From: Paenirhizobium naphthalenivorans
GTDB lineage: Bacteria > Pseudomonadota > Alphaproteobacteria > Rhizobiales > Rhizobiaceae
Direction of reading: 5' to 3'
NCBI RefSeq assembly: GCF_007992095.1
Contig: NZ_BJZP01000011.1
Coordinates: 62,001-126,000 of the forward strand
Length of the DNA: 64,000 nucleotides
In this document: positions 1,652 through 19,209 of the stretch, piece after piece
Layout: each line of letters begins with the position of its first letter
How positions within the stretch are numbered: the stretch's first letter is position 1
Program-made: the position numbers and the translations under genes
The notes under the pieces: model-generated
Databases searched by the model: none
Told to the model about the DNA's origin: nothing
Seen by the model: only the letters and a program-made list of their open reading frames with translations

Positions 1652-3364
1652 TCAGAACAGAAAGTACCGCTGCGCCATCGGCAGGACCGTGGCAGGTTCG
1701 CAGGTGAGCAATTCCCCGTCGGCGCGGACCTCGTAGGTTTCCGGGTCGACCTCGACATGCGGGGTCAGGTCATTGAGAATCATCGACTTCTTGGAAATGC
1801 CGCCACGGGTGTTTTTCACCGCCACCAATTGCTTGGCGACGCCCAGTCGACCGGCAAGGCCGGCATCGAGCGAGGCCTGGCTGACGAAGGTGACGGAGGA
1901 ATTGGTGAGCGCCTTGCCGAAGGCACCGAACATCGGCCGATAGTGCACCGGTTGCGGCGTCGGGATCGAGGCATTGGGATCGCCCATGGGAGCGGCCGCG
2001 ATCGAGCCGCCGAGCAGCACCATATCCGGCTTCACACCGAAAAAGGCGGGACTCCAGATCACCAGGTCGGCCCGCTTGCCGACCTCGATCGAACCGATCT
2101 CGTGGGAAAGCCCCTGCGCGATCGCCGGATTGATCGTGTATTTGGCAATGTAACGACGGACGCGGAAATTATCGTTGTCGCCGGTTTCCTGGGCAAGCCT
2201 GCCGCGCTGGCGCTTCATCTTGTCGGCGGTCTGCCAGGTGCGGATCGCCACCTCGCCGACGCGGCCCATGGCCTGGCTGTCGGACGAAATGATCGAAAAG
2301 GCGCCGATGTCATGCAGGATGTCTTCCGCCGCGATGGTTTCCTTGCGGATACGGCTTTCGGCAAAGGCAATGTCTTCGGGGATAGACGATGACAGGTGGT
2401 GGCAGACCATCAGCATGTCGAGATGTTCGGCAATCGTATTGACCGTGTAGGGCCGCGTCGGATTGGTCGATGACGGAATGACATTCATCTGGCCGCAGAT
2501 CTTGATGATGTCCGGCGCATGGCCACCACCCGCACCTTCGGTATGGAAGGCGTGAATGGTACGGCCGCGCATCGCGCCGATCGAATCCTCGACAAAGCCG
2601 GATTCGTTCAGCGTGTCGGTGTGGATCATCACCTGCACGTCGTACTGATCGGCGACGGTGAGGCAGCAGTCGATCGCCGCCGGCGTCGTGCCCCAGTCTT
2701 CATGCAGTTTGAGCGAGGATGCGCCGCCGAGCACCATTTCCTCAAGCGCACCGGGCAGCGAGGCATTGCCCTTGCCGGCAAAGGCGAGGTTCATCGGGAA
2801 GGCGTCGGCCGCCTCGATCATCCGGGCGATGTGCCACGGACCGGGCGTGCAGGTGGTCGCGAGCGTACCGTGGGCCGGGCCGGTGCCACCGCCGAGCATG
2901 GTGGTCAACCCGCTCATCAGCGCTTCTTCGATCTGCTGCGGGCAGATGAAATGAATGTGACTATCCATGCCGCCGGCGGTCACGATCTTACCCTCGCCGG
3001 CGATCACCTCGGTGCCCGGACCAACGATAATGTCGACACCGACCTGCGTGTCCGGATTGCCGGCCTTGCCGATCGCGTGGATGCGCCCGTCCTTCAACCC
3101 GATGTCAGCCTTGACGATACCCCAATGGTCGACGATCAGCGCATTGGTGATGACCGTATCGACGGCACCGTTGGCGCGCGTGACCTGACTCTGGCCCATG
3201 CCGTCACGGATGACCTTGCCGCCGCCGAACTTCACCTCGTCGCCATAGGTGGTGAAATCCTTCTCGACCTCGATGAAAAGTTCGGTATCGGCAAGCCGCA
3301 CCTTGTCACCGGTAGTCGGTCCGAACATAGAGGCATAGGCCTTGCGGGACATCTTGTAGGGCAT
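1652..3364 (-). CDS. ureC: Urease alpha subunit UreC
   Basis: 570 residues, the normal length of a three-subunit bacterial urease alpha chain. It is the catalytic subunit hydrolysing urea to ammonia and carbamate at a di-nickel centre. Visible metal and active-site elements, in order: HIH (nickel), the lysine in SLKLHEDWG that becomes carbamylated, the histidines in [11 protein letters not shown] and HTEGAGGGH, the mobile-flap motif VCHHLSSS, and the aspartate in SSDSQAMGR. All key residues are present. It is the last gene of the urea block. In most rhizobia ureE, ureF and ureG follow it, but here a 209-bp gap and an unrelated peroxiredoxin follow. Confidence 0.98.
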
Positions 3365-5754: not shown

Positions 5755-6573
5755 TCACAGATTCCAGACTTTCGGCACTGACGCCCCGCCGCGCAAGACG
5801 GAAATCGCCGGGATCAGGCATTTTCTCAAAGTATACCCATCTTCGGCCGCAAGCCGGGCGACAAGCTTTCCATTCCATTGGCTGGCGCCACCCGCCGCAT
5901 CACCGAGCACAGCGCGCACCTTGGGCAGCAGCGCCTCGCAAAGGGGCCCGCTATAGAACACGGTGGCAAAGGCAACCTTGCCGGCCAGAACAGGACCAGA
6001 GGCCGTCAAGCCGGCCACGTCTCCGGCCATCAGCAATTCTTCGGCATGGATCAGGCTGCCGCCACGGCGGATGCGCCAGCGGTCACGCAACATGCCCTGT
6101 GCCATGGCCTCGCCCATGGCCTTGCGGCCGAGCAGGATCGCTTCGACGGCGACGAATTCGGCACTCTCGTCAAGATCGACCTCAAGGCGCCGCGTCAGCG
6201 AGGCATTGTCGAAAAGAATGCTCTCCTGCGGCAGCCAGTGAACCCGCGCACCGGGACCGGCGTCAATGCGCGTGGTCACCTCGGCCGTGCCGGCGGCTGC
6301 CTTGTAGACCTTCTCGCAGGCCTGGGTGGTGGCGGTGAGAAATGTGTCGGGGCCGGCGACAAACGACCAGTCCATCCGGTCACCGCCTGTCAGGCCGCCA
6401 GCGGTGTTGATGATCACCGCCTCCATCTCGTCGGTAAAGGTCTGCGGCAAGCGGATCTTGGCCGCGCCTTCCTGGTAGAGTTCGGCAATGCGCGTGCGCC
6501 CGCCGAATGGCTTCGTCACAAGCCTTCCGACGCCCCGGGCGCGCTGAGGTCTGATTGCACTGGCTGTCTGCAC
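5755..6573 (-). CDS. ureD: Urease accessory protein UreD
   Basis: 272 residues. UreD is the scaffold that docks UreF and UreG onto apo-urease for nickel insertion. Family motifs include [13 protein letters not shown] around residues 55-67 and [12 protein letters not shown] around 112-123. The frame is open for another 38 codons, but the GTG at 6573 has AGGGAA just upstream and gives the usual length and N-terminus. This start lies inside the 3' end of the upstream esterase gene, overlapping it by 58 nt, so the two are likely translationally linked. Its partners UreE, UreF and UreG are not in the window. Confidence 0.93.
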
Positions 6574-7664
6574 GCTGTTCCCTGCCCGCCCTTGTTGTTC
6601 GTGGCGGTTGTTGTCGTGTCGATGCAGGTCGCCTTGGCCGTCGATGTGGCCACAAGCTCCTTTCCCGCACTGCGAAAGAAGTCCCACATTCTGTCCGTCG
6701 CATCAACCTCCCGGATCGCCTCATCCCCGCCCATTGCGAGAGGAAAGTGGATGCTCTGCGCGGGCCAGTCATGCGTGGCGTCGGCGATCACATAGGACAT
6801 GACGCTCGTTCCGCCCCGGCAGCCGGAATAGGTCGACACGGAAAACCCGTCACCCTTGTCGGTGCTCTCACGGTCGTCGCAGCCATTGAGTTCGGCCCAG
6901 CGTTTCAGCGCGACCTCGCCGCCATATTGCCAATAGGGTTTGCCACCGCCAGCGAACGGATTGATGTGATCCTTGAGACCGGAAAACGCGATGATCGAGA
7001 TCGGCCGAGCCGGCTGGCAGCTTGCCTTGCGCGGCCGCCATACGCCATCCTCCTGTTCCGGATAGCCGGCGCGCAAGCCCATGACAAAGCCGGCGGCAGT
7101 GAAATCCCCATGCCCGTCGCAGATATATTGCGACAGCATACGCCCGCCGCCGGAATAGCCGGAGGCGTAGACGCGGGCCGGATCGACGCAGAACATCTGC
7201 TTGGCCTTGTCAACCGCGTCGCGGATGAACCTGCCTTCATCGAGACCGTTGCCGCGGCTGACGCCCGGCAGCGGATTCACGCCGGGAACATTCCAGGCAT
7301 AGGTGCCAGGCACAGCGCCGTCGAGACTGCCCTGTAACGCCATGACGATGAAGCCTTCCCGCTCGGCGACAGCATCCCAGTGGCTACGGTTCATCTGACC
7401 TTCGGGATGGCTGTTGGAACCGTGGAAGTCGAAGACAAGCGGCAGCTTGCGCTTTCCGCTGTAGGTCGAGGGAATGAAATAAACAGCCGAGCGCTCGACG
7501 CCGTCCGATTGGATCGCCAGCTCGTGCCGTCCGGCCGGCAATGACACACCGCAGCCCGAGGCCATGGCGCTTGCGCCCATGCCGGCGAGGATGAAAAGTG
7601 CCGTTGCAAGGAAGCCGACGGCCCCGCCGCCCCGCACACAGTGTCGAACCATGCTGGTTGTCAT
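6516..7664 (-). CDS. LpqC-type poly(3-hydroxybutyrate) depolymerase-family esterase, secreted
   Basis: 382 residues. The N-terminus is a signal peptide (hydrophobic core about residues 12-32, followed by ASG). The alpha/beta-hydrolase nucleophile is in [10 protein letters not shown], and a candidate catalytic histidine is in THDWP. PHB-depolymerase/feruloyl-esterase features such as PLVFDFHG are also present. Likely periplasmic or extracellular, with unknown ester substrate. Several upstream ATGs exist. 7664 has AAAGG nearby and keeps a normal signal peptide. The last 58 nt overlap ureD. The C-terminal 40 residues after the hydrolase domain are low-complexity Thr/Ala and may be an extension created by this overlap. 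Confidence 0.85.
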
Positions 7665-7759: not shown

Positions 7760-8461
7760 TCAAACGGTCAGATGGCGGCGCGCTTCCGCCGTGTCGAGCG
7801 TTTCAGCCGGCCCCTGATGCACGATCTCGCCGCGATCCATGATGTAGACATGGTCGGCAAGCTCGCGGCAGAAGTCGAGATATTGTTCGACCAGCAGGAT
7901 CGCCATGCCGGTCGAGTCCCGCAGGTAGCGGATCGCCCGGCCGATGTCCTTGATGATCGACGGTTGGATCCCTTCGGTCGGCTCGTCCAGCACAAGGATT
8001 TTGGGGCGAGTGACCATCGCCCGGCCGATGGCGAGTTGCTGCTGCTGGCCGCCCGACAAGTCACCGCCGCGCCTTGCGAGCATGGTTTGCAACACCGGGA
8101 AGAGGCTGAAGATCTCGTCGGGGATGAAGCGTTCCTTGCGCGGCAGTGGCGCATAGCCGGTTTCGAGGTTTTCCCTGACCGTCAGCAACGGAAAAATCTC
8201 GCGCCCCTGCGGCACATAGCCGATACCGGCGCGGGCTCGGTTGAACGGTGCCATGCCGTTGAGCGTCACCCCGTCAAAGGCGATCTTGCCGGCCGTCACG
8301 CCGTGCTGGCCAGTGACGGCGCGAAGCAACGACGACTTGCCGACCCCGTTTCGCCCGAGCACGCAGGTGATCTTGCCGGCACCAGCCCGGATGCTGACAC
8401 CGCGCAAGGCCTGAGCTGCGCCATAGTGGAGATTGACGTTGTCGACGACGAGATCGCTCAC
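7760..8461 (-). CDS. urtE: Urea ABC transporter ATP-binding protein UrtE
   Basis: 233 residues. It is one of two ATPases powering the urea importer UrtABCDE at the inner membrane. Walker A GRNGVGKSS (about residues 36-44), signature LSGGQQQQLAIGR (about 132-144) and Walker B ILVLDEPTEG are intact. The start is GTG at 8461. Its GTGA overlaps the ancestral stop of the frameshifted hydrolase upstream, so translation may be affected by that lesion. A 95-bp gap separates it from the esterase gene. Confidence 0.95.
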   Translation of the reverse strand: MSDLVVDNVNLHYGAAQALRGVSIRAGAGKITCVLGRNGVGKSSLLRAVTGQHGVTAGKIAFDGVTLNGMAPFNRARAGIGYVPQGREIFPLLTVRENLETGYAPLPRKERFIPDEIFSLFPVLQTMLARRGGDLSGGQQQQLAIGRAMVTRPKILVLDEPTEGIQPSIIKDIGRAIRYLRDSTGMAILLVEQYLDFCRELADHVYIMDRGEIVHQGPAETLDTAEARRHLTV

Positions 8462-9524
8462 GATATGGTCTCCTTGATGAAATCCTGGATGGCGGAAAAA
8501 GCATCGCCGTTGTGCCCAACCCAGAGATGGCCCCGCTGGGGTAGATGATCGAACGCGCCCCCGGCACGGTCGCCGCGATGTGCCGCGCCGCGTCGGCAGT
8601 CAGATAGCGGTCGTCTTCACACGAAATCGCCAGTGTGGGCGCAGTGATGCTGGCGATTGCCATCTCATCCGGGTTGCCGGCCAGACGCATGTCGTTGACC
8701 AGGCCCCGTGCGCGTGCGCTCACTGGCAATATTGCCTGCAGTATCGATTGTACGCGCAGGCGTTCGTCTGGACCCACCGCTTCCAGCAGCGCGGGGTCTG
8801 TGGCAAGAACCGAACCGATCAGCATGTCGGAAGCGGTCCCGGTCAGGGTCCAGTAGAGAAAGTCGGATTCCAGGGCAGATTTGACAATCCGCTGCATAAG
8901 CGGCGACCACGGCCGCGCGGCCGGCCGGTTCGGCGCATAGGTCGCAGGTACCAGCGCGACCAGCGCGGCGCAACGATCTGGATGACGGATGGCGAAAGCC
9001 TGCGCCGAGAGAGCCCCGGCCGAACCGCCCACGACCGCGATCTTGTCGATAGCCAATTGATCAAGCAGTTCGGCCAAGGCATCCGCTTGATTTTCGGATG
9101 ACGGGACTTCGGGGAAGTCTGTACCCAGATAGCCGAAGCGTGATGGCGCAATCACCCGCATCCCACGCTCGATCAACGGTTGGGCGAACAGCATGCCCTG
9201 GTCAAAGCCGCCCCCGCTCCCATGGACCATCAGCACTGAAGGTCCATGGCCGGCCTCGGCGTATTCGAGCCGGCCAAAACGGGTAACGATGGCATTCGGA
9301 CGATAAGAGGCGATGCGCGCCCGCGCGCTTTCCATCGCCCGGGAAAAGGAATGGCGCGCCCATCCGCTACCGGCTGCCGCGCCGACGGTCCCCGAGGCAA
9401 GCGCGAGTATCATCCGGCGCGTCATCATGCCCATGATCTCCGCGGACATTCCCACCATGCCCCGTGGCATCGTTTCGATCACCGGGATCATATCAGGGTG
9501 AGTCATCGGCGCATTGACAATCAT
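8458..9524 (-). pseudogene. Alpha/beta hydrolase inside the urt operon, frameshifted near its C-terminus
   Basis: The frame from the ATG at 9524 encodes a roughly 350-residue alpha/beta hydrolase. It has an arginine-pair N-terminal helix (MMTRRMILALA), oxyanion region VHGSGGG and nucleophile elbow VVGGSAGALS. At 8529-8534 the frame slips. Read as is, the protein continues as nonsense (SGAISGLGTT...) far into urtE. Adding one G to the G-run restores PSGGHLWVGHNGDAF...KETIS followed by a TGA that overlaps the urtE GTG in the usual 4-nt way. The lost part contains the expected catalytic histidine (GGHLWVGH). So this is a one-nucleotide deletion, either a real inactivation or a homopolymer sequencing error. 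Substrate unknown. Confidence 0.85.
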
Positions 9525-9528
9525 CAGG

Positions 9529-10281
9529 TCACCGCCCGAGGTAGTTTTCAATGACCTTGGGATCGGCCGATACGAAATCGATCGAGCCTTCGGCCAGCAC
9601 CGAACCTTCGGCAAGGCAGGTCACCTTGACGCCCAAGTCGCGGATGAAACCCATATCGTGCTCGACGACGACGACGGAACGGGTCTTGGCGATCTCCTTG
9701 AGCAGGATCGCCGTCTCCAATGTCTCCGCGTCGGTCATGCCGGCGACCGGCTCATCGACCAACAGCAGCCTCGGTTCCTGCGCAAGCAGCATGCCGATTT
9801 CCAGCCATTGCTTCTGGCCATGGGAAAGATTGGCGGCGAGATCCTCCTTGCGGCCGGTGAGCCGTACGGTTTCGAGGATCTCCTCTATGCGAGCCTTGTC
9901 CTGCGCCGTCAGCCGATAGAACAGCGTGCCGAACACCCCACGGCTGCGGTTAAGCGCCAGTTCAAGATTGTCCCAGACGGTGTGGCTCTCAAATACCGTC
10001 GGCTTCTGGAACTTGCGGCCGATGCCAAGCTGGGCGATTTCAGCCTCGTCCTTCTTGGTGAGGTCGACCTCGCCGTTGAAGAACACCTCGCCCTCGTCGG
10101 GCCGGGTCTTGCCGGTGATGATGTCCATCATCGTCGTTTTGCCGGCACCATTCGGGCCGATGATCGCGCGCAGCTCGCCCGGTTCGACGACGAAGGACAG
10201 CGCGTTCAGCGCCTTGAACCCGTCGAAGGAAACGGAGACGCCATCGAGATAGAGAATGCTCGTCGGTTTCTTGTTGTTCAT
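9529..10281 (-). CDS. urtD: Urea ABC transporter ATP-binding protein UrtD
   Basis: 250 residues. It is the second ATPase of the urea importer, related to LivG. Walker A GPNGAGKTT (about 42-50), signature LSHGQKQWLEIG (about 155-166) and Walker B LLLVDEPVAGM are present, and the C-terminus YLGR is typical of UrtD. It starts 5 nt after urtC and its stop precedes the hydrolase start by 4 nt. Confidence 0.96.
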   Translation of the reverse strand: MNNKKPTSILYLDGVSVSFDGFKALNALSFVVEPGELRAIIGPNGAGKTTMMDIITGKTRPDEGEVFFNGEVDLTKKDEAEIAQLGIGRKFQKPTVFESHTVWDNLELALNRSRGVFGTLFYRLTAQDKARIEEILETVRLTGRKEDLAANLSHGQKQWLEIGMLLAQEPRLLLVDEPVAGMTDAETLETAILLKEIAKTRSVVVVEHDMGFIRDLGVKVTCLAEGSVLAEGSIDFVSADPKVIENYLGR

Positions 10282-10286
10282 CTCGT

Positions 10287-11450
10287 TTACTCCGCGGCCT
10301 GGCCAAGCGGCACCGCCGCGTCCGTACCCTTTTCAGCCTCGACGGCCGCTTTGCGATCCCTGCCCGCCGCATAGCGCTGCTGGATCGTGCCGACGACGCC
10401 CCTCGGCAGGAACAACGTCACGCCGATGAACAGCCCGCCAAGGGCGAACAGCCAGAGTTCCGGGAAAGCGCCGGTGAAGTAGCTTTTGCCGGCATTGACG
10501 AGCAGGGCGCCGATAATCGGGCCGATCAGCGTGCCGCGCCCGCCGACGGCGGTCCACACCACCACTTCGATCGAGTTGGCCGGCGCGAATTCGCCGGGAT
10601 TGATGATGCCGACCTGCGGCACGAACAGCGCGCCGGCAATGCCCGCCATCATCGCCGAGACGACGAAAGTGAAGAGCTTGATGTTCTCGACCCGGTAGCC
10701 AAGGAAGCGCACCCGGCTTTCGGCATCGCGTACGCCGACCAGCACCTTGCCGAACTTGGAGCGCACGATGGCCGAAGAGATCAGCAGGCAGAGAGACAGC
10801 ATGATCGCCGACAGGGCAAACAGCACCGCGCGGGTTCCGTCGGCCTGGACGTTGAAGCCGATGATCTCCTTGAAATCGGTCAGACCGTTATTGCCGCCAA
10901 AACCCATGTCGTTGCGGAAGAAGGCGAGCAGCAGCGCATAGGTCATCGCCTGGGTGATGATCGACAGATAGACACCGTTGACGCGGGAGCGGAAAGCGAA
11001 CCAACCGAAGACGAAGGCGAGCAGGCCCGGCACGACGAGGACCATCAGCATGGCGAACCAGAACATGTCCATGCCTTGCCAGAACCACGGCAGTTCCTTC
11101 CAGTTGAGGAAGACCATGAAGTCGGGCAGCAACGGATTGCCATAGACACCGCGCGAACCGATCTGGCGCATCAGATACATGCCCATGGCATAGCCGCCGA
11201 GCGCGAAGAAGGCGCCGTGACCGAGCGAAAGGATGCCGCAATAACCCCAGACGAGATCGAGCGCGAGCGCGAGCAGCGCATAGCAGAGATATTTGCCCAT
11301 CAACGAGACGGCATAGGTCGGGATGTGGAAAAAGCTGTCCGGCGAAGTCAAGAGATTGAGTGCCGGCACCAGCATCGCGACGCCCAGCAGCATGGCGATG
11401 GCGACGACGATCTTTCCTTCGAGTGCCCTGAAGATGAAGCCCGTGATCAT
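10287..11450 (-). CDS. urtC: Urea ABC transporter permease UrtC
   Basis: 387 residues, a multi-span LivM-type permease. The hallmark GYCGILSLGHGAFFALGG lies around residues 69-86, and about ten hydrophobic segments span the rest. It pairs with UrtB to form the urea channel. The start overlaps the urtB stop by 4 nt (ATGA), which indicates translational coupling. The hydrophilic alanine-rich tail of about 25 residues is normal for rhizobial members. Confidence 0.95.
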   Translation of the reverse strand: MITGFIFRALEGKIVVAIAMLLGVAMLVPALNLLTSPDSFFHIPTYAVSLMGKYLCYALLALALDLVWGYCGILSLGHGAFFALGGYAMGMYLMRQIGSRGVYGNPLLPDFMVFLNWKELPWFWQGMDMFWFAMLMVLVVPGLLAFVFGWFAFRSRVNGVYLSIITQAMTYALLLAFFRNDMGFGGNNGLTDFKEIIGFNVQADGTRAVLFALSAIMLSLCLLISSAIVRSKFGKVLVGVRDAESRVRFLGYRVENIKLFTFVVSAMMAGIAGALFVPQVGIINPGEFAPANSIEVVVWTAVGGRGTLIGPIIGALLVNAGKSYFTGAFPELWLFALGGLFIGVTLFLPRGVVGTIQQRYAAGRDRKAAVEAEKGTDAAVPLGQAAE

Positions 11451-13051
11451 GCTTCCACCGCCCTTCCCTTGAGCGCGAAAAGCCCGCGCGGTCGTTTCTG
11501 GATGAAGAGGATGATCAGCACCAGCACGAGGATCTTGCCCAGCACCGCGCCGACCGAGGGTTCGAGGAACTTGTTGAGAATGCCGAGCGACAAGGCGCCG
11601 ACCAGCGTGCCCCAGAGATTACCCACCCCGCCGAACACCACGACCATGAAGCTGTCGATGATGTAGGCCTGACCGAGGTTGGGCGAGACATTGTCGATCT
11701 GCGAAAGCGCCACCCCGGCAATCCCGGCGACGCCGGAACCGAGCGCGAAGGTGAACGCGTCGACCCAAGGGGTGCGGATGCCCATGGAAGAGGCCATACG
11801 GCGGTTCTGGGTGACGGCGCGCATCTGCAAACCGAAGGCCGAGCGCTTCATCAGGGCCAGCAGCGCGAAGAAGATCGACAGCGAGAAGATCACGATCCAC
11901 AAGCGGTTCCAGGTGATGGTCAACCCGCCAAGCGCGAACGAACCCGACATCCACGACGGATTGCCGACCTCCTGATTGGTCGGACCGAAGATCGTGCGGA
12001 TCGACTGCTGCAGAATGAGCGAGATGCCCCAGGTGGCGAGCAGCGTTTCCAGCGGTCGGCCATAGAGGAAACGGATAATACCGCGCTCGATCACCAGGCC
12101 GATAACGGCAGTGACCAGAAATGCGACCGGAAGCGCAATAGCCAGCGACCAGTCGAACAGTTGCGGATAGCCGGTGCGGATCACCTGCTGGACCATGAAG
12201 GTGGAATAGGCGCCGATCATCACCATCTCGCCATGCGCCATGTTGATGATGCCCATGACGCCGAAGGTGATGGCAAGACCGATGGCGGCAAGCAAGAGGA
12301 CAGAACCGAGCGACAGGCCATACCAGACGTTCTGCAGGCCATCCCAGAGCGCGAGATTGCCTTCTATGCCGGCAATCGCCTTGTCGAGATCGGGCTTGAG
12401 ACTTTCGTCAAGGGTTCCGGAAACCGACATCAGGATACCGATCGCCTCACGTCCGCCAAGCGAGGCAACCGTCTCGATCGCGGCACGCTTGTCCTCAATC
12501 GAGCGATCGGAAGCAAGAAGGGAGACGGCGCGCGCCTCTTCCATCCGCGCCTTGACCTCAGTGTCGGTCTCCTTGGCCAATGCCGTTTCGACGAGCTCGA
12601 GGTTTTCCGCGCTCGGCGACTGGAGAACCGATTGCGCCGCCTGGAGACGAACGGTCCTGTCGGGGCTGAGAAGTGTCAGACCGCCGAGCGCGGAGCGGAT
12701 GGCACGGCGCAGGCTGTTGTTGACCTTGATCTTGGTGAAGGCCGCCTTCGGCGCTTCGCCGGCGGCCTCGCCCGTCAGGACCTCGGTGGCAGCCAGATTG
12801 GCGCCGGCAGTCTTGGTGATCACCACGGCACCATCCGATTTACGGACATAGAGATCGCCTTCGGCAAAGGCCTCAAGCGCCGGCACGACGCGGGCATCAC
12901 CGGTCGCGGCGATCTGCATCAGCAGATCTTCGGCCTGCTTGAAGTTGGCCGTGCCAAGCGCATTGATCAGATCCCTCGGATCGCTCTGCGCAAACGATGG
13001 CGCGGCGAACGCGAAAAACAGGAAGAGGATTGTGAGAAGTCGATTGATCAT
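11447..13051 (-). CDS. urtB: Urea ABC transporter permease UrtB with periplasmic N-terminal extension
   Basis: 534 residues. The first 20 form a signal peptide (LFLFFAFAAPSFAQ). Residues about 25-230 are an alpha-helical, HEAT-like extension characteristic of UrtB. The rest is a LivH-type permease with FGVMGIINMAHGEMVM near residues 263-278 and about eight membrane segments. It is separated from urtA by 175 bp holding a RIME-like palindrome, then runs directly into urtC. Confidence 0.95.
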   Translation of the reverse strand: MINRLLTILFLFFAFAAPSFAQSDPRDLINALGTANFKQAEDLLMQIAATGDARVVPALEAFAEGDLYVRKSDGAVVITKTAGANLAATEVLTGEAAGEAPKAAFTKIKVNNSLRRAIRSALGGLTLLSPDRTVRLQAAQSVLQSPSAENLELVETALAKETDTEVKARMEEARAVSLLASDRSIEDKRAAIETVASLGGREAIGILMSVSGTLDESLKPDLDKAIAGIEGNLALWDGLQNVWYGLSLGSVLLLAAIGLAITFGVMGIINMAHGEMVMIGAYSTFMVQQVIRTGYPQLFDWSLAIALPVAFLVTAVIGLVIERGIIRFLYGRPLETLLATWGISLILQQSIRTIFGPTNQEVGNPSWMSGSFALGGLTITWNRLWIVIFSLSIFFALLALMKRSAFGLQMRAVTQNRRMASSMGIRTPWVDAFTFALGSGVAGIAGVALSQIDNVSPNLGQAYIIDSFMVVVFGGVGNLWGTLVGALSLGILNKFLEPSVGAVLGKILVLVLIILFIQKRPRGLFALKGRAVEA

Positions 13052-13226: not shown

Positions 13227-14516
13227 TCAGCTGCCCTTGCCGCCGCACTTGCCGGTTGCAACGTTGAAGTTGCCGCATTCCATCGGCTTGCGCCAATCGG
13301 AGATCAGGTCCTTGGAATCGGGCAGGTAGTCCGACCATTCGTCACCGACGACGGCAGGCGTCTGCTGCACGATTTCGAACTGGCCGTCAGCCTGGATTTC
13401 ACCGATCAGCACCGGCTTGGTGATATGGTGGTTCGGCATGACGGTCGAATAGCCACCCGAGAGGTTGGGAACAGCAACGCCGATGATCGAGTCGAGCACC
13501 GCATCCGTGTCGGTCGTCCCGGCCGCCTCGACGGCCTTCACCCAAGCGTTGAAGCCGATATAGGCGGCCTCCATCGGGTCGTTGGTCACGCGCTTGTCGT
13601 TCTTGGTAAAGGCATGCCAGGTCTTGATGAACTCGGCATTGGCCGGGGCATCGACGGACTCGAAATAGTTCCAGGCCGCCAAATGGCCAACCAGAGGCGT
13701 AGTATCGAGACCAGCCAGTTCCTCTTCGCCGACCGAGAAGGCGACGACCGGAATGTCTTCGGCCTTGATGCCCTGGTTGCCCAGTTCCTTGTAGAAGGGA
13801 ACATTGGCATCGCCGTTGATGGTGGAGACGACGGCGGTCTTCTTGCCAGCGGAGCCGAACTTCTTGATGTCGGAGACGATCGTCTGCCAGTCGGAATGAC
13901 CGAATGGCGTGTAGTTGATCATGATGTCCTCTTCGGCGACACCCTTCGACATCAGGTAAGCCTTGAGGATCTTGTTGGTCGTCTGCGGATAGACGTAGTC
14001 GGTGCCGGCGAGCACCCAGCGCTCGACGCCTTCTTCATTGGCCAGATAATCAACGGCCGGGATCGCCTGTTGGTTCGGAGCGGCCCCCGTGTAGAAGATG
14101 TTGCGCGAGGATTCCTCACCCTCGTACTGCACCGGATAGAACAGGATCGAATTCAGCTCCTCGAAAACCGGCAGGACCGACTTGCGCGACGACGAGGTCC
14201 AGCAACCGAAAACGGCGGCGACCTTGTCCTGGGAAATCAGCTGGCGGGCCTTTTCGGCAAACAGCGGCCAGTCTGAGGCCGGGTCGACGACGACGGCCTC
14301 GAGCTTCTTGCCGAGAACGCCACCCTTCTTGTTCTGCTCCTCCACCATCATCAACATGGCGTCCTTGAGCGTCGTCTCGGAGATCGCCATGGTGCCGGAC
14401 AGCGAGTGCAGCACGCCGATCTTGATCGTATCGTCGGCGGCAAAGGCGCCGTGAAATGCCGTCGTCGACAGCATGGCGCCCATCAACGCGCCGGTGAGCT
14501 TCATCTTCAAAGTCAT
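13227..14516 (-). CDS. urtA: Urea ABC transporter substrate-binding protein UrtA
   Basis: 429 residues. A Sec signal peptide (about residues 1-27, cleavage near AFAA) is followed by the ligand domain starting DTIKIGVLHSLSGTMAISE, typical of urea-binding UrtA. Later motifs include FGCWTSSSRKSVLP and the C-terminal cysteine pair in ECGNFNVATGKCGG. It captures urea in the periplasm and delivers it to UrtBC. It is the first gene of the urea block, and its promoter must lie in 14517-14906 facing the sensor-kinase gene. Confidence 0.97.
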   Translation of the reverse strand: MTLKMKLTGALMGAMLSTTAFHGAFAADDTIKIGVLHSLSGTMAISETTLKDAMLMMVEEQNKKGGVLGKKLEAVVVDPASDWPLFAEKARQLISQDKVAAVFGCWTSSSRKSVLPVFEELNSILFYPVQYEGEESSRNIFYTGAAPNQQAIPAVDYLANEEGVERWVLAGTDYVYPQTTNKILKAYLMSKGVAEEDIMINYTPFGHSDWQTIVSDIKKFGSAGKKTAVVSTINGDANVPFYKELGNQGIKAEDIPVVAFSVGEEELAGLDTTPLVGHLAAWNYFESVDAPANAEFIKTWHAFTKNDKRVTNDPMEAAYIGFNAWVKAVEAAGTTDTDAVLDSIIGVAVPNLSGGYSTVMPNHHITKPVLIGEIQADGQFEIVQQTPAVVGDEWSDYLPDSKDLISDWRKPMECGNFNVATGKCGGKGS

Positions 14517-14610: not shown

Positions 14611-14626
14611 TACGTCATATGACGTA
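14611..14626. promoter_or_regulatory. 16-bp perfect palindrome, candidate operator of the urea regulon
   Basis: TACGTCATATGACGTA is a perfect palindrome about 95 bp upstream of urtA and 280 bp upstream of the kinase gene. Such a dyad would fit a dimeric HTH protein such as the LuxR-type regulator encoded next door. That link is inference. Confidence 0.5.
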
Positions 14627-14906: not shown

Positions 14907-17900
14907 ATGGCCGCACGGCAACGCATCATCCCGGTCCGGCGCGCGTATAACCGCTGGGTCGCCAACCAGACGCTGGAAGACTACGCCCTTCGCTTCACCG
15001 CCAAGAGTGCCCGACAGTTCTCCTCCAGCCGAATTTCCCAGACGGCGATCGGCGCGATCTCCTTCCTGGCGCTGGAGGCGATCGGCGGGACGATCACTCT
15101 CTCCTACGGCACGACCAACGCTTGTCTCGCCATCATCGCCGCGGCGATTCTGATGCTGTTCGTCGGCCTGCCGATCAGCCGCTATGCGATCCGCCACGGC
15201 GTCGACATCGACCTTCTGACCCGCGGCGCCGGATTCGGCTATATCGGCTCGACGGTCACCTCGCTGATCTACGCGAGCTTCACCTTCATGCTGTTCGCGA
15301 TCGAAGCCTCGATCATGACGGGCGCCCTGGAGCTGGCCTTCGGCATCCCGTTGTGGATCGGCTACATCGTCTCGGCCATGGTGGTGATCCCGCTCGTCAC
15401 CTATGGCGTACGTCTGATCTCGAAGTTCCAGCTGATAACCCAGCCCATCTGGATCGTCCTCAACATTCTACCTTTCATCTTCATCGCCTTTCTCGACTGG
15501 GAGAAGATCGACCTGTGGCGCGCCTTTGCCGGCATCGGCCACTCCAACGCGCAGGCCGGCGCTGCCGCTCCCTTCAATCTGATCGAATTCGGGGCCGCGT
15601 CCGCCGTGATCCTGGCGCTGATGCCGCAGATCGGCGAGCAGGTCGACTTCCTGCGCTTCCTGCCGCCGGAGGGTGGCCGAAAGCTGCACCATCGCTTCGC
15701 GGTCTTCCTCGCCGGCTCCGGCTGGGTGCTGCTCGGCGTGCCCAAACTGCTCGCCGGCTCGTTCCTCGCCGTGCTGACACTATCGACGGGCGTCCCCATC
15801 CGCGAGGCGGCCGATCCGGCTCATATGTATCTGGCAGCCTTCGGCTACATGATCCCGAACGAGACGGCGGCCATGCTGCTGATGGCGTGCTTCGTGGTGA
15901 TCTCGCAGCTGAAGATCAACGTGATGAACGCCTATGCCGGATCGCTCGCCTGGTCGAACTTCTTCTCCCGCCTCACCCACAGTCATCCCGGCCGCGTGGT
16001 CTGGCTGGTGTTCAACGTGGCAATCGCCCTGCTCCTGATGGAGCTCGGCATCTACCGGCTCCTGGAAGAGACGCTTGGCATCTTCTCGATCATCGCCATG
16101 GCCTGGCTTTGTACCATCTCGGCCGACCTCTTCGTCAACAAGGCACTGGGCCTTGCTCCCCCCGGCATCGAGTTCAAGCGCGCCCATCTCTACGACATCA
16201 ATCCGGTCGGCTGCGGCACGCTGCTGCTGTCGGCCGGCATCGCGCTTGCGGCCCATTTCGGCCTGTTCGGCCCCTTGATGGCCTCGCTTGCCACCTATGT
16301 CACGCTGATCGCCTTCCTGATCTCGCCGCTGATCGCCTGGGCCACGGACGGCAAGTTCTACCTCGCCCGCAAGCCGCGCCAGAGCTGGAAGAACCTCAGC
16401 TCGATCACCTGCTCGATCTGCGAGCATCCCTTCGAGCCGGAGGATATGGCGTGGTGCCCGGCCTATGCCGCGCCGATCTGCTCGCTCTGCTGCTCGCTCG
16501 ACAGCCGATGCCATGACATGTGCAAACCACAGGCGAAGCTCAACGCCCAAACCGCCTTTGTCGCCGCCCGTATCCTACCCGAACAGGCCATCACATGGCT
16601 TTCCACCCGCCTTGGTCGTTACGCCGTCACCGCCGTCATCGCCGTCTCGCTGATTGGCGCCATCCTGGCTCTGATCGCCCACCAGGTCGCGACAGCCTCG
16701 CCGGTGACGGCGGAAGTCGTCAACCGGACCGTCCTGATCGTCTTCATCGTCTCCGCCGTGATCTCCGGTGTCGCCAGCTGGTTCTACGTCCTGGCCCATG
16801 ACAGCCGGGTCGTGGCGGAGGAGGAATCCTCGCGTCAAAACACCCTGCTGCTCAAAGAAATCGCCGCGCACCGCAAGACCGACGCCGCCCTACAGGCCGC
16901 CAAGGAAACGGCGGAGGCCGCCAATCGGGCCAAGAGCCGCTACGTCGTCGGCCTTTCCCATGAACTGCGGACACCGCTCAACGCCGTGCTCGGTTATGCC
17001 CAGATCCTCGAACGCGATGAAACCATCCCGCCGGCGCGCCAGTCGGCGATCAAGGTCATCCGTCGTTCCGCCGACCACCTGTCCGGCCTGATCGACGGAC
17101 TGCTCGACATATCGAAGATCGAGGCGGGTCGCCTTCAGGTCTTTTCCAACGAGGTGAACATTCAGGACTTCCTCGACCAATTGGTCGACATGTTCACCCC
17201 TCAGGCAACCGCCAAGGGACTGACCTTCGTGCACGAGCGTGCGCGCAGCCTTCCGCAATATGTCCGCACCGACGAGAGGCGACTGCGGCAGATCCTCGTC
17301 AACCTCCTTTCCAACGCCATCAAGTTCACCGACCAGGGCACGGTACGCTTCGAGGTTGGCTACCGCAGTCAGGTCGCGACCTTCACCGTGTCCGACACCG
17401 GGCGCGGCATATCGGAGAACGACCTGAAACGGATCTACGAGCCCTTCCAGCGCGGCGAGGCGGATAATATCCGGCCGATGCCGGGTCTCGGGCTGGGATT
17501 GACCATCACCAAGCTCCTCACCAATACGCTCGGTGGCGAGATCGCGGTGACAAGCGAGAAGGACAAGGGCTCTATCTTCAAGGTGAGACTGATGCTCTCG
17601 ACGATCGACCGGCCGAGCACCGCCCCCGCCCCGGAGCGCAAAATCATCTCCTACACCGGCCCGCGCCGCACCCTTGTCGTCGTCGATGACAATGAGGACC
17701 ATAGAGACCTGATGCGCGAGGTTCTGGCGCCGCTCGACTTTGTCGTGCTCACCGCCGCAAGCGGGCCGGAATGTCTCACGCTGATTGAGGGAGTCAGACC
17801 GGATCTATTTCTGGTCGACATCCAGATGCCGGGCATGAATGGTTGGCAGCTGGTCGAAAAACTGCGGAATGCAGGCCAAAGTGCACCGATCGTCATGCTC

Positions 17901-18293
17901 TCGGCCAATATCGGCGATGCGCCCGGACCCGGTGGAGAGGGCCATGACGATGCGATCGCCAAACCGGTCGACGTCCGGCGGCTGCGCGACAAACTCGCCA
18001 TGTATCTGGGCCTCGAGTGGATCTATGCCGACGAACAGCCGCACCCGGCGGTGACCACCTCCCCCCCGGATCGGCCCCCATCACCTGGCACGGCGCATAT
18101 CGCCGAACTGTCGCGCCTAAGCGAGATCGGCTATGTCCGCGGCATAGAGGCCAAGCTTGCGGACCTGTCGAAAATCGAGGAAAACAGCGCCTTCGTCGAC
18201 GCCTCGCGCGGTTTCGTGCAGGCCTTCGACATGGCCGGCTTTGCAACGTTCCTCAAGGAAGTCGATGGCCGGGGGGAGAAGAACCATGGCTGA
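14907..18293 (+). CDS. NCS1-permease-like transporter fused to a hybrid histidine kinase
   Basis: 1128 residues. Residues about 20-490 resemble an NCS1 (purine/cytosine/allantoin-type) permease with some twelve membrane segments. Residues about 498-540 form a cysteine-rich patch (CSICEHPF, CPAY, CSLCC, CHDMC) that may bind metal. Two more membrane helices (about 568-590 and 605-628) lead to a kinase core with His685 in LSHELRTP, an ATPase domain (NLLSNAIKF, GLGLGLTI) and a receiver with Asp971 in LVDIQMPG. A roughly 60-residue helical tail ends the protein. Architecture suggests sensing through a transporter domain. The ligand is unknown, but its place opposite urtA suggests urea or a related nitrogen compound. 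It overlaps the next regulator gene by 8 nt. Confidence 0.9.
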   Translation: MAARQRIIPVRRAYNRWVANQTLEDYALRFTAKSARQFSSSRISQTAIGAISFLALEAIGGTITLSYGTTNACLAIIAAAILMLFVGLPISRYAIRHGVDIDLLTRGAGFGYIGSTVTSLIYASFTFMLFAIEASIMTGALELAFGIPLWIGYIVSAMVVIPLVTYGVRLISKFQLITQPIWIVLNILPFIFIAFLDWEKIDLWRAFAGIGHSNAQAGAAAPFNLIEFGAASAVILALMPQIGEQVDFLRFLPPEGGRKLHHRFAVFLAGSGWVLLGVPKLLAGSFLAVLTLSTGVPIREAADPAHMYLAAFGYMIPNETAAMLLMACFVVISQLKINVMNAYAGSLAWSNFFSRLTHSHPGRVVWLVFNVAIALLLMELGIYRLLEETLGIFSIIAMAWLCTISADLFVNKALGLAPPGIEFKRAHLYDINPVGCGTLLLSAGIALAAHFGLFGPLMASLATYVTLIAFLISPLIAWATDGKFYLARKPRQSWKNLSSITCSICEHPFEPEDMAWCPAYAAPICSLCCSLDSRCHDMCKPQAKLNAQTAFVAARILPEQAITWLSTRLGRYAVTAVIAVSLIGAILALIAHQVATASPVTAEVVNRTVLIVFIVSAVISGVASWFYVLAHDSRVVAEEESSRQNTLLLKEIAAHRKTDAALQAAKETAEAANRAKSRYVVGLSHELRTPLNAVLGYAQILERDETIPPARQSAIKVIRRSADHLSGLIDGLLDISKIEAGRLQVFSNEVNIQDFLDQLVDMFTPQATAKGLTFVHERARSLPQYVRTDERRLRQILVNLLSNAIKFTDQGTVRFEVGYRSQVATFTVSDTGRGISENDLKRIYEPFQRGEADNIRPMPGLGLGLTITKLLTNTLGGEIAVTSEKDKGSIFKVRLMLSTIDRPSTAPAPERKIISYTGPRRTLVVVDDNEDHRDLMREVLAPLDFVVLTAASGPECLTLIEGVRPDLFLVDIQMPGMNGWQLVEKLRNAGQSAPIVMLSANIGDAPGPGGEGHDDAIAKPVDVRRLRDKLAMYLGLEWIYADEQPHPAVTTSPPDRPPSPGTAHIAELSRLSEIGYVRGIEAKLADLSKIEENSAFVDASRGFVQAFDMAGFATFLKEVDGRGEKNHG

Positions 18294-19209
18294 GGCAAAC
18301 CGTCCGCGCGATATCGTGCTGCTCGTCGACGACAGCCCGGAGGCACTCGGCTTTTTGACGGAAGCCCTGGAGCAAGCCGGCTTTTCCGTGCTGATCGCCA
18401 CCTCCGGTCAGGCCGCATTGTCGATCGTCGACAAGATCAGCCCGGATCTCATCCTGCTCGACGCGGTCATGCCCGGCATGGACGGCTTCGAGACCTGCCG
18501 CAGGCTAAAGGCCGATCCGGTCGTCGCCCAGGTGCCGGTGATCTTCATGACCGGGCTGACCGAGACGGAGCATGTCGTCCATGCACTCGATTCCGGCGGT
18601 GTCGACTACCTGACCAAGCCAATCAACATCGACGAGTTGCGAGCACGCATCCGCGTGCACCTGTCAAACGCCCGCTCTGCCCAGAGCGCCCGCGTGGCGC
18701 TCGATGCCGCCGGGCGGCACCTGCTGGCCGTTCGCGGTAACGGCACGGTCCACTGGTCGACCCCCCAGGCAACCCGGCTCGTCGACAGCGCCACCGGCAG
18801 CACGAGCGGTCTCGATGTCGTCGCCGACGCCATCGCAAGCTGGATGGCGCAGCGAGGGACACATGCAGCAGAGAACAATACGACCTTCTCGTTCTGTCAC
18901 GACGGCGAGACAGAATTGCAGCTCGGCTTCCTAGGTGGACTCGGCCCGGACGAATATCTGTTCCGGCTGACGGCCGCCAATCGCAAGCGCGACGACGAAG
19001 TGTTGCGCGGCCAGTTCGGCCTGACGCAGCGGGAAGCCGAAGTGCTGCTGTGGATCGCCAAGGGCAAGGCAAACCGCGACATCGCCGATATTCTCGGGCT
19101 ATCGGCGCGCACGGTGAACAAGCACCTCGAGCAGATCTACGTGAAGCTCGGCGTTGAAAACCGCGCCTCTGCCGCGGTCAAGGCGGCACACGCGCTGCAT
19201 GTGGATTGA
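18286..19209 (+). CDS. LuxR/NarL-type response regulator, partner of the permease-kinase
   Basis: 307 residues. The N-terminal receiver has acidic pair Asp15-Asp16, phosphoacceptor Asp59 (LILLDAVMPG) and the conserved lysine in YLTKPIN. An uncharacterised middle region (about 130-230) follows. A LuxR helix-turn-helix closes the protein (LTQREAEVLLWIAKGKANR, SARTVNKHLEQIYVKL). The start at 18286 overlaps the kinase stop, so the two are translated as a pair. The open frame extends upstream inside the kinase gene, but that part is not homologous. Likely target: the divergent urtA promoter (inference). Confidence 0.92.
   Translation: MAEANRPRDIVLLVDDSPEALGFLTEALEQAGFSVLIATSGQAALSIVDKISPDLILLDAVMPGMDGFETCRRLKADPVVAQVPVIFMTGLTETEHVVHALDSGGVDYLTKPINIDELRARIRVHLSNARSAQSARVALDAAGRHLLAVRGNGTVHWSTPQATRLVDSATGSTSGLDVVADAIASWMAQRGTHAAENNTTFSFCHDGETELQLGFLGGLGPDEYLFRLTAANRKRDDEVLRGQFGLTQREAEVLLWIAKGKANRDIADILGLSARTVNKHLEQIYVKLGVENRASAAVKAAHALHVD

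Follow-up and report, generated by a model that had tools for sequence, protein, structure and literature searches.

Sensor kinases with a fused transporter are described as rare, transceptors have been called apparent oddities (PMC11109136), and the worked examples that we met are CbrA, CrbS, RpuS and Ks-Amt5. In CrbS/CrbR (MxtR/ErdR) and RpuS/RpuR, as presented in portions of PMC5715377, PMC9100948 and PMC7918813, a transporter-like domain of the SLC5 type is followed by HisKA, HATPase and receiver (REC) domains, the partner carries a LuxR-type helix-turn-helix (HTH), and for CrbR a repeat lies upstream of uptake and utilisation genes. CbrA, of the CbrA/CbrB pair, is a transporter-kinase fusion termed a transceptor (PMC13022988), built as an SLC5-STAC-PAS kinase without REC and with histidine as substrate (PMC7918813). 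In Ks-Amt5, a protein of 679 residues without REC or cysteine module, whose regulator was not identified in the sections of PMC5764959 considered here, a nitrogen-compound transporter domain of the Amt fold has turned into the sensor of the fused kinase. In the present study, we analysed a stretch of 64,000 nucleotides from Paenirhizobium naphthalenivorans (contig NZ_BJZP01000011.1, positions 62,001 to 126,000; hereafter the window), where a hybrid sensor kinase headed by an NCS1-like permease module is encoded with a LuxR-type response regulator, opposite a urea transporter (urt) operon. We propose that the pair is a transceptor two-component system in which the permease module would sense urea, or a short amide in sister loci, and the LuxR-type partner would act on urtA; we give this reading a probability of roughly 0.72. 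No description of an NCS1-kinase fusion was found in a literature search of open-licence PMC papers, and the review PMC8534201 names Ks-Amt5 as a transporter fusion; NCS1, urea and CbrA are not mentioned in the part of its text considered here.

The kinase, recognised as an open reading frame and by domain search, has 1128 residues (14907..18293, plus strand). By Pfam it contains HisKA at residues 676-741 (16932..17129), HATPase_c at 788-897 (17268..17597) and a receiver at 924-1030 (17676..17996), all on the plus strand. The partner regulator of 307 residues (18286..19209, plus strand) carries REC at residues 11-123 and GerE, the LuxR-type HTH, at 246-300 (19021-19185). By position, the expected phosphorylation sites would be H685 (16959-16961) and D971 (17817-17819) in the kinase and D59 (18460-18462) in the regulator. 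The two genes overlap by 8 nt, the regulator ATG at 18286 standing before the kinase stop at 18291-18293; this junction is overlapping in 132/157 hybrid loci, and in a further 22 the two genes lie no more than 50 bp apart (154/157). Across a gap of 390 bp the pair faces urtA, which encodes the urea ABC transporter binding protein and is the likely target (13227..14516, minus strand; TIGR03407, 560.7 bits against a cut-off of 492.75), and the complete urtABCDE lies opposite the kinase with all five NCBIfam urt models above cut-off. Domain order, overlap and orientation agree with what the first-pass annotation had read from the letters. Its phrase "complete phosphorelay in one chain" has to be given up: no histidine phosphotransfer (HPt) domain was found in the kinase chain, to which this search was limited (Pfam, E<=0.1), and the only histidines past residue 1020 are 1046, 1064 and 1127, so that "hybrid kinase plus partner" is the proper term. 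In the regulator, the segment of about 120 residues between REC and HTH (18658-19020) matches no Pfam family above cut-off.

In general plan the pair resembles CrbS/CrbR and RpuS/RpuR, unlike which the transporter is NCS1-like rather than SLC5, an eight-cysteine module stands in the place of STAC, the targets would be urea and amide genes, and the site differs from the ACTU motif described in the relevant part of PMC5715377. By analogy, the kinase may work like CrbS/CrbR and CbrA, yet we do not class it with the SLC5/STAC kinases. The portion of PMC13296017 considered here also mentions a LuxR-type two-component pair next to a urtABCDE operon.

The gene company of the relatives was examined in a blind set, for which 67 places (L057-L123) were taken from the order and phylum matches, mostly one per genus with a few genera sampled twice or more, before their neighbours were viewed; matches that were partial or lay at a contig edge (G259, G037, G481) were excluded, as were additional species of genera that were already represented. 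Tblastn was used to map the urt, urease and amidase genes, with FmdA, FmdB and AmiF references identified by Pfam, and the loci were labelled. Hybrids made up 63/67 of these places, and all 63 lay beside urt, urease or formamidase/amidase genes, so the homologues are not found mostly away from urea and nitrogen genes. Among them, 25 had urt genes with UrtA at least 60% identical to that of the window, 32 had urt genes (UrtA 35-42% identical) together with FmdA, AmiE or AmiF, and 6 had urease. Linkage was also seen in 78/80 of the best named genomes (L132-L211), the two unlinked loci being L173 and L143, whose contig starts 771 bp before the match, and in 156/159 of all hybrids, the third miss being L219, where a stand-alone module adjoins the hybrid kinase. 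The blind set gives the fairer number, because the total includes near relatives and the same-genus loci L124-L131. The kinase family divides into urea-type and short-amide-type loci. Thus, among the ligands that the first-pass annotation had listed, urea and short amides fit the locus types, and allantoin, hydantoin and cytosine become less likely.

The family is widely distributed. Matches to kinase residues 1-636 were obtained in 39/60 near genomes, 63/249 genomes of the order and 59/398 of the phylum sample, each count including a few weak ordinary-permease matches, and in 534 plasmid records, 342 of them from Klebsiella. In the plant symbiont Sinorhizobium fredii, strain NGR234 has a module with 79.6% identity, and strain USDA 205 (L164) carries urt genes together with kinase and regulator. 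A cassette of urt, formamidase, kinase and regulator genes is carried on Klebsiella plasmids, at least 2 of the 342 records having a stand-alone permease instead; the same cassette occurs on an E. coli plasmid from dog urine (L271), and a short DNA match was found in 4/5426 E. coli genomes. One Klebsiella plasmid urea cluster (L052) has the kinase, a regulator match and the palindrome site TACGTCATTTAACGTA; its amide-type UrtA (10506-11678, minus strand) passed the urea model TIGR03407 (556 bits, cut-off 492.75), so that proteins of formamidase loci may be misnamed "urea ABC transporter". Amides are carried by ATP-driven FmdDEF-like systems. For urt genes that lie next to formamidase, import of formamide has been suggested (PMC13209695, in part). 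A second architecture was met in four loci (L083, L088, L092, L123), namely NCS1-Cys-kinases of 878-886 residues without REC, with FmdA and FmdB near all four; in L088 the gene after the shorter kinase encodes a REC-HisKA-HATPase protein.

Upstream of urtA, with its centre about 100 bp before the start codon, lies the palindrome TACGTCATATGACGTA (TACGTC-N4-GACGTA; 14611..14626, no strand assigned), which is the likely regulator site. In a dyad screen of the 51 urtA-kinase gaps shorter than 800 bp (the window, L052, L055 and 48 of L057-L123), TACG-N8-CGTA was present in 38 (in 30 shuffles, no dyad of that length exceeded 10) and TACGTC-N4-GACGTA in 26 (at most 2 in the shuffles). With one mismatch allowed and within 300 bp upstream of urtA, the palindrome was found in 88/139 hybrid loci, the reversed and permuted controls giving 0/139 each; for the blind set plus the window the count was 30/48. 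It also stood upstream of FmdA in 7/58 cases and of AmiF in 1/2, and of AmiE in 0/22; looser copies are seen upstream of FmdA and AmiE in a Methylovirgula plasmid locus (L218). The 61 TACG-N8-CGTA sites of 69 loci lay, in 58 cases, no more than 400 bp upstream of urtA, the kinase, FmdA or AmiF; three control patterns, counted at the same distance from any mapped gene, gave 6/35, 1/8 and 3/33. In many close relatives (L129-L149 and others), urtA and the kinase are separated by 1-8 kb of intervening genes. In 38 urea-type loci with a spacing of 1.0-7.8 kb, the palindrome (at most one mismatch) was within 300 bp on the urtA side in 29 and on the kinase side in 1, and at two mismatches these counts were 36 and 1. 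Since the palindrome follows urtA where the kinase is distant, it belongs to the urtA promoter.

Whether the palindrome goes with the kinase was judged from genomes that have urtA without it. UrtA matches were present in 152/249 genomes of the order, and 40 lacking the hybrid kinase were drawn from the upper part of the list, two of which (G156, G283) have weak ordinary-permease matches; about 450 bp upstream of urtA was read in each, one stretch being only 319 bp. The palindrome occurred in 0/40 within two mismatches and in 3 within three, and the core dyad in 0/40, against 20/21 (at most one mismatch) and 21/21 (core dyad) in the urea-type hybrid loci of the order sample, the window included. 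The corresponding Fisher p of 3e-15 for kinase-bearing against kinase-lacking upstreams is too good, because the loci are related. The target promoter that the first-pass annotation had only inferred thereby gains independent, sequence-based support. These counts also bear on the view that both the gene order and the palindrome are leftovers of ancestry, with the palindrome belonging to another regulator and the pair controlling something else. Gene order can indeed be inherited, and one other exact copy of the palindrome exists in the window's genome, inside an FtsK-like reading frame. The linkage to urt, urease and amidase genes is nevertheless found repeatedly, in several different arrangements, and the kinase-lacking upstreams without the palindrome include families f16, f41 and f50, which also occur among the kinase-bearing loci that have it; we consider this view very improbable. 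Genome-wide, 6 matches with at most one mismatch were found for the palindrome and 6 for the reversed control, so only the site at urtA is taken as meaningful.

The permease module occupies residues 1-490 (14907..16376, plus strand), with the fold match extending over about 30-490. An AlphaFold2 (AF2) model of residues 1-660, built from 36 sequences, reached a predicted local distance difference test (pLDDT) of 76.3 and a predicted template modelling score (pTM) of 0.77. In the structure comparison that the first-pass annotation had proposed, Foldseek placed Mhp1 at ranks 1-3 (E 4.4e-7, target TM-score (TMt) 0.64) and CodB at rank 4 (E 4.9e-6, TMt 0.66), followed at rank 5 by the SLC5 chain SGLT2 (E 5.8e-6), with TMt 0.49 against 0.64-0.67 for the NCS1 chains. 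By VIA-align, CodB (Z 25.7) and Mhp1 (Z 25.1) were on top, MhsT (24.2) was tied with Mhp1 by the rule of the tool, and the SLC5 chains CHT1 and DUR3 reached Z about 21 against 25 for NCS1. Mhp1 and CodB, whose substrates are hydantoins and cytosine, share the fold of the module, unlike which they are without kinase or cysteine module and only 13-20% identical over the structural alignments. A stand-alone relative in a Klebsiella urease operon (L051), 38-41% identical to the module, passed PF02133 (37.7 bits, cut-off 23.5), and another (L214) matched TIGR00800 over its whole length, far under cut-off (27.2 of 353.1); six other stand-alone or module sequences gave no match in this search. When the module alone was searched by phmmer against solved chains, only chance-like matches to G-protein chains were obtained. 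The module is thus NCS1-like, with the fold given by the model and family membership by sequence reached only via a relative.

The same permease also occurs alone. Ten stand-alone relatives, two of which (both from Acinetobacter) are nearly identical, have 535-565 residues, end near the cysteine patch and are about 38-43% identical to the kinase module; all ten come from the plasmid collection, in which some records are chromosome-sized, and in the phylum sample (398 genomes, at most 3 candidates a genome scored) no stand-alone form was found beyond one 28% match. Seven of the ten lie in similar company, 3 beside urease (Acinetobacter and Klebsiella) and 4 beside formamidase or aliphatic amidase, namely FmdA in Moraxella and Tsukamurella and aliphatic amidase in Arthrobacter and Methylovirgula; two from Streptomyces have no relevant gene in the neighbourhood, and one (L219) lies beside a hybrid kinase. 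On the Methylovirgula plasmid L218, a hybrid kinase and a stand-alone permease of the same family adjoin, with FmdA, FmdB and aliphatic amidase. Permeases of urease, formamidase or amidase loci (L050, L051, L212, L213, L215, L216) are annotated as cytosine, allantoin or hypothetical; the stand-alone "cytosine/allantoin permeases" are probably urea or amide permeases. The same permease being in the same company alone and as a kinase head, the context suggests that urea and small amides are the ligands. On a tree of 90 rows, the type of context, urea or amide, required 6 changes over the 83 rows labelled for it and the stand-alone form 1, and the contexts cluster when compared with shuffles. The stand-alone forms fall into one clade with the shorter kinases (support 82), on a tree whose outgroup branch is very long.

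Being found in urease and amidase loci, the stand-alone forms are presumably transporters, and the module keeps their conserved residues; CbrA likewise transports histidine, according to the part of PMC7918813 considered. The module may then carry urea or amide itself, and the kinase may answer transport rather than binding, as discussed for CbrA. The present data fit flux and binding alike without separating them, and the comparable fusion Ks-Amt5 binds ammonium with transport lost (PMC5764959, in part), so we hold flux sensing to be a tentative and rather unlikely account.

Between the module and HisKA, eight cysteines (C502, C505, C517, C525, C528, C529, C535, C539) form a putative zinc-binding module at residues 502-539 (16410..16523, plus strand), delimited by conservation and a linker model; what the first-pass annotation called a cysteine-rich patch is invariant in 163/163 kinase-fused relatives (159/159 hybrids and 4/4 shorter kinases). 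In the ten stand-alone permeases, which unlike the kinase have mostly lost cysteines 517, 529, 535 and 539, C502 is kept in 10/10, C505, C525 and C528 in 8/10 each, C517 in 3, and C529 and C539 in 1 each. From this pattern, one four-cysteine site may serve the permease and a second the coupling to the kinase. The cross-brace geometry of RING domains is the background for such a two-metal arrangement. The linker model (residues 488-664; pLDDT 84.9, pTM 0.58) has short strands and helices over the cysteines and then two long helices at residues 568-659 (16608..16883, plus strand; secondary structure of this and the AF2 model), probably a membrane pair and a coiled coil into HisKA. Foldseek with this model gave no match at E<=0.001, and RING, PHD and LIM chains came only at E 1.2 and above. 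The eight-cysteine module holds the position of STAC in SLC5/STAC kinases; Pfam and NCBIfam scans of the kinase gave no match to STAC, the presence of a STAC model in either library being unchecked.

Such cysteines could bind metal or sense redox, and no substrate-specific residue pattern was found in the module. It could therefore be argued that the regulator controls urt while the module is a membrane anchor or a reader of a general signal, such as membrane state, a cation or proton gradient, or metal and redox via the cysteines. Nine polar residues of the module (E133, Q241, E244, Q245, D247, Q334, K336, N338, N341) are, however, invariant in 173/173 fused and stand-alone proteins, which is beyond the needs of an anchor, and stand-alone versions stand in the same gene company, where only a permease role is possible. 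We judge this explanation improbable.

Taken as a transceptor two-component system, the pair would work as follows. The NCS1-type module would bind urea, or a short amide in sister loci, and its ligand-dependent conformation would be passed through the eight-cysteine module, the helix pair and the coiled coil to HisKA (H685). Phosphate would go from H685 to the kinase receiver (D971), to the partner (D59), or to both, and the phosphorylated partner would bind the TACGTC-N4-GACGTA site before urtA and, in some sister loci, the one before fmdA or amiF. Binding most likely activates uptake; we infer activation rather than repression because the partner is LuxR-type and from the example of CrbR. 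Several findings weigh against this proposal. The palindrome was absent within one mismatch from 18/48 regions upstream of urtA in the blind set plus the window, and was upstream of ureD in 0/30 and of ureA in 0/30; the core dyad was not found in any of the 7 urease-linked hybrids or in the beta urea-type loci L103, L107 and L108, and its co-occurrence with the kinase could come in part from shared ancestry. The fold alone is not family-specific, as the Foldseek E-value of SGLT2 comes near that of CodB and less than 1 Z separates MhsT from Mhp1; the kinase's own permease module matched no Pfam transporter family (E<=0.1), and a family profile of 13 sequences found none of the solved chains at E<=1. 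Finally, no residue column of the module switches cleanly between urea and amide contexts, the best columns being weak. Related LeuT-fold families share much of the Mhp1/CodB fold, and in four loci of shorter kinases the palindrome was not found within two mismatches. Overall, the analysis supports the earlier interpretation and adds to it the amide branch and the palindrome.

The remainder of the urt operon lies on the minus strand, with urtB at 11447..13051 (TIGR03409), urtC at 10287..11450 (TIGR03408), urtD at 9529..10281 (TIGR03411) and urtE at 7760..8461 (TIGR03410). In UrtB, about 240 residues precede the stretch matched by the model (240-530 of 534). An alpha/beta-hydrolase frame (8274-9614, minus strand) lies between urtD and urtE, with a match only in L058 among the loci searched. 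Urease genes follow beyond urtA-urtE in the window: ureC, urease alpha (1652..3364, minus strand), was named by similarity to annotated urease loci, and the frame at 5755..6687 (minus strand, start uncertain), which matches beside other urease genes, served as the reference for the accessory gene ureD, which we take it to be.

The present locus adds to the few worked transporter-kinase fusions a common family that uses another transporter class and has a defined target site, and so the question of how a permease conformation reaches a kinase becomes directly testable. We see about an even chance that this is a widespread, undescribed family in which an NCS1 permease has come to sense urea or short amides directly, with a RING-like cysteine module for two metals, found almost only in the fused forms, coupling the permease cycle to the kinase, and with several switches between urea and amide versions, many of these versions sharing one palindrome class. 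The cassette of urt, formamidase, kinase, regulator and palindrome also rides on Klebsiella plasmids with a urea cluster that has been proposed to aid life in the urinary tract, the kinase going unmentioned in the portions of these papers considered here (PMC13060141, PMC5506382). If the proposal is true, this kinase would let bacteria sense urea or small amides directly.

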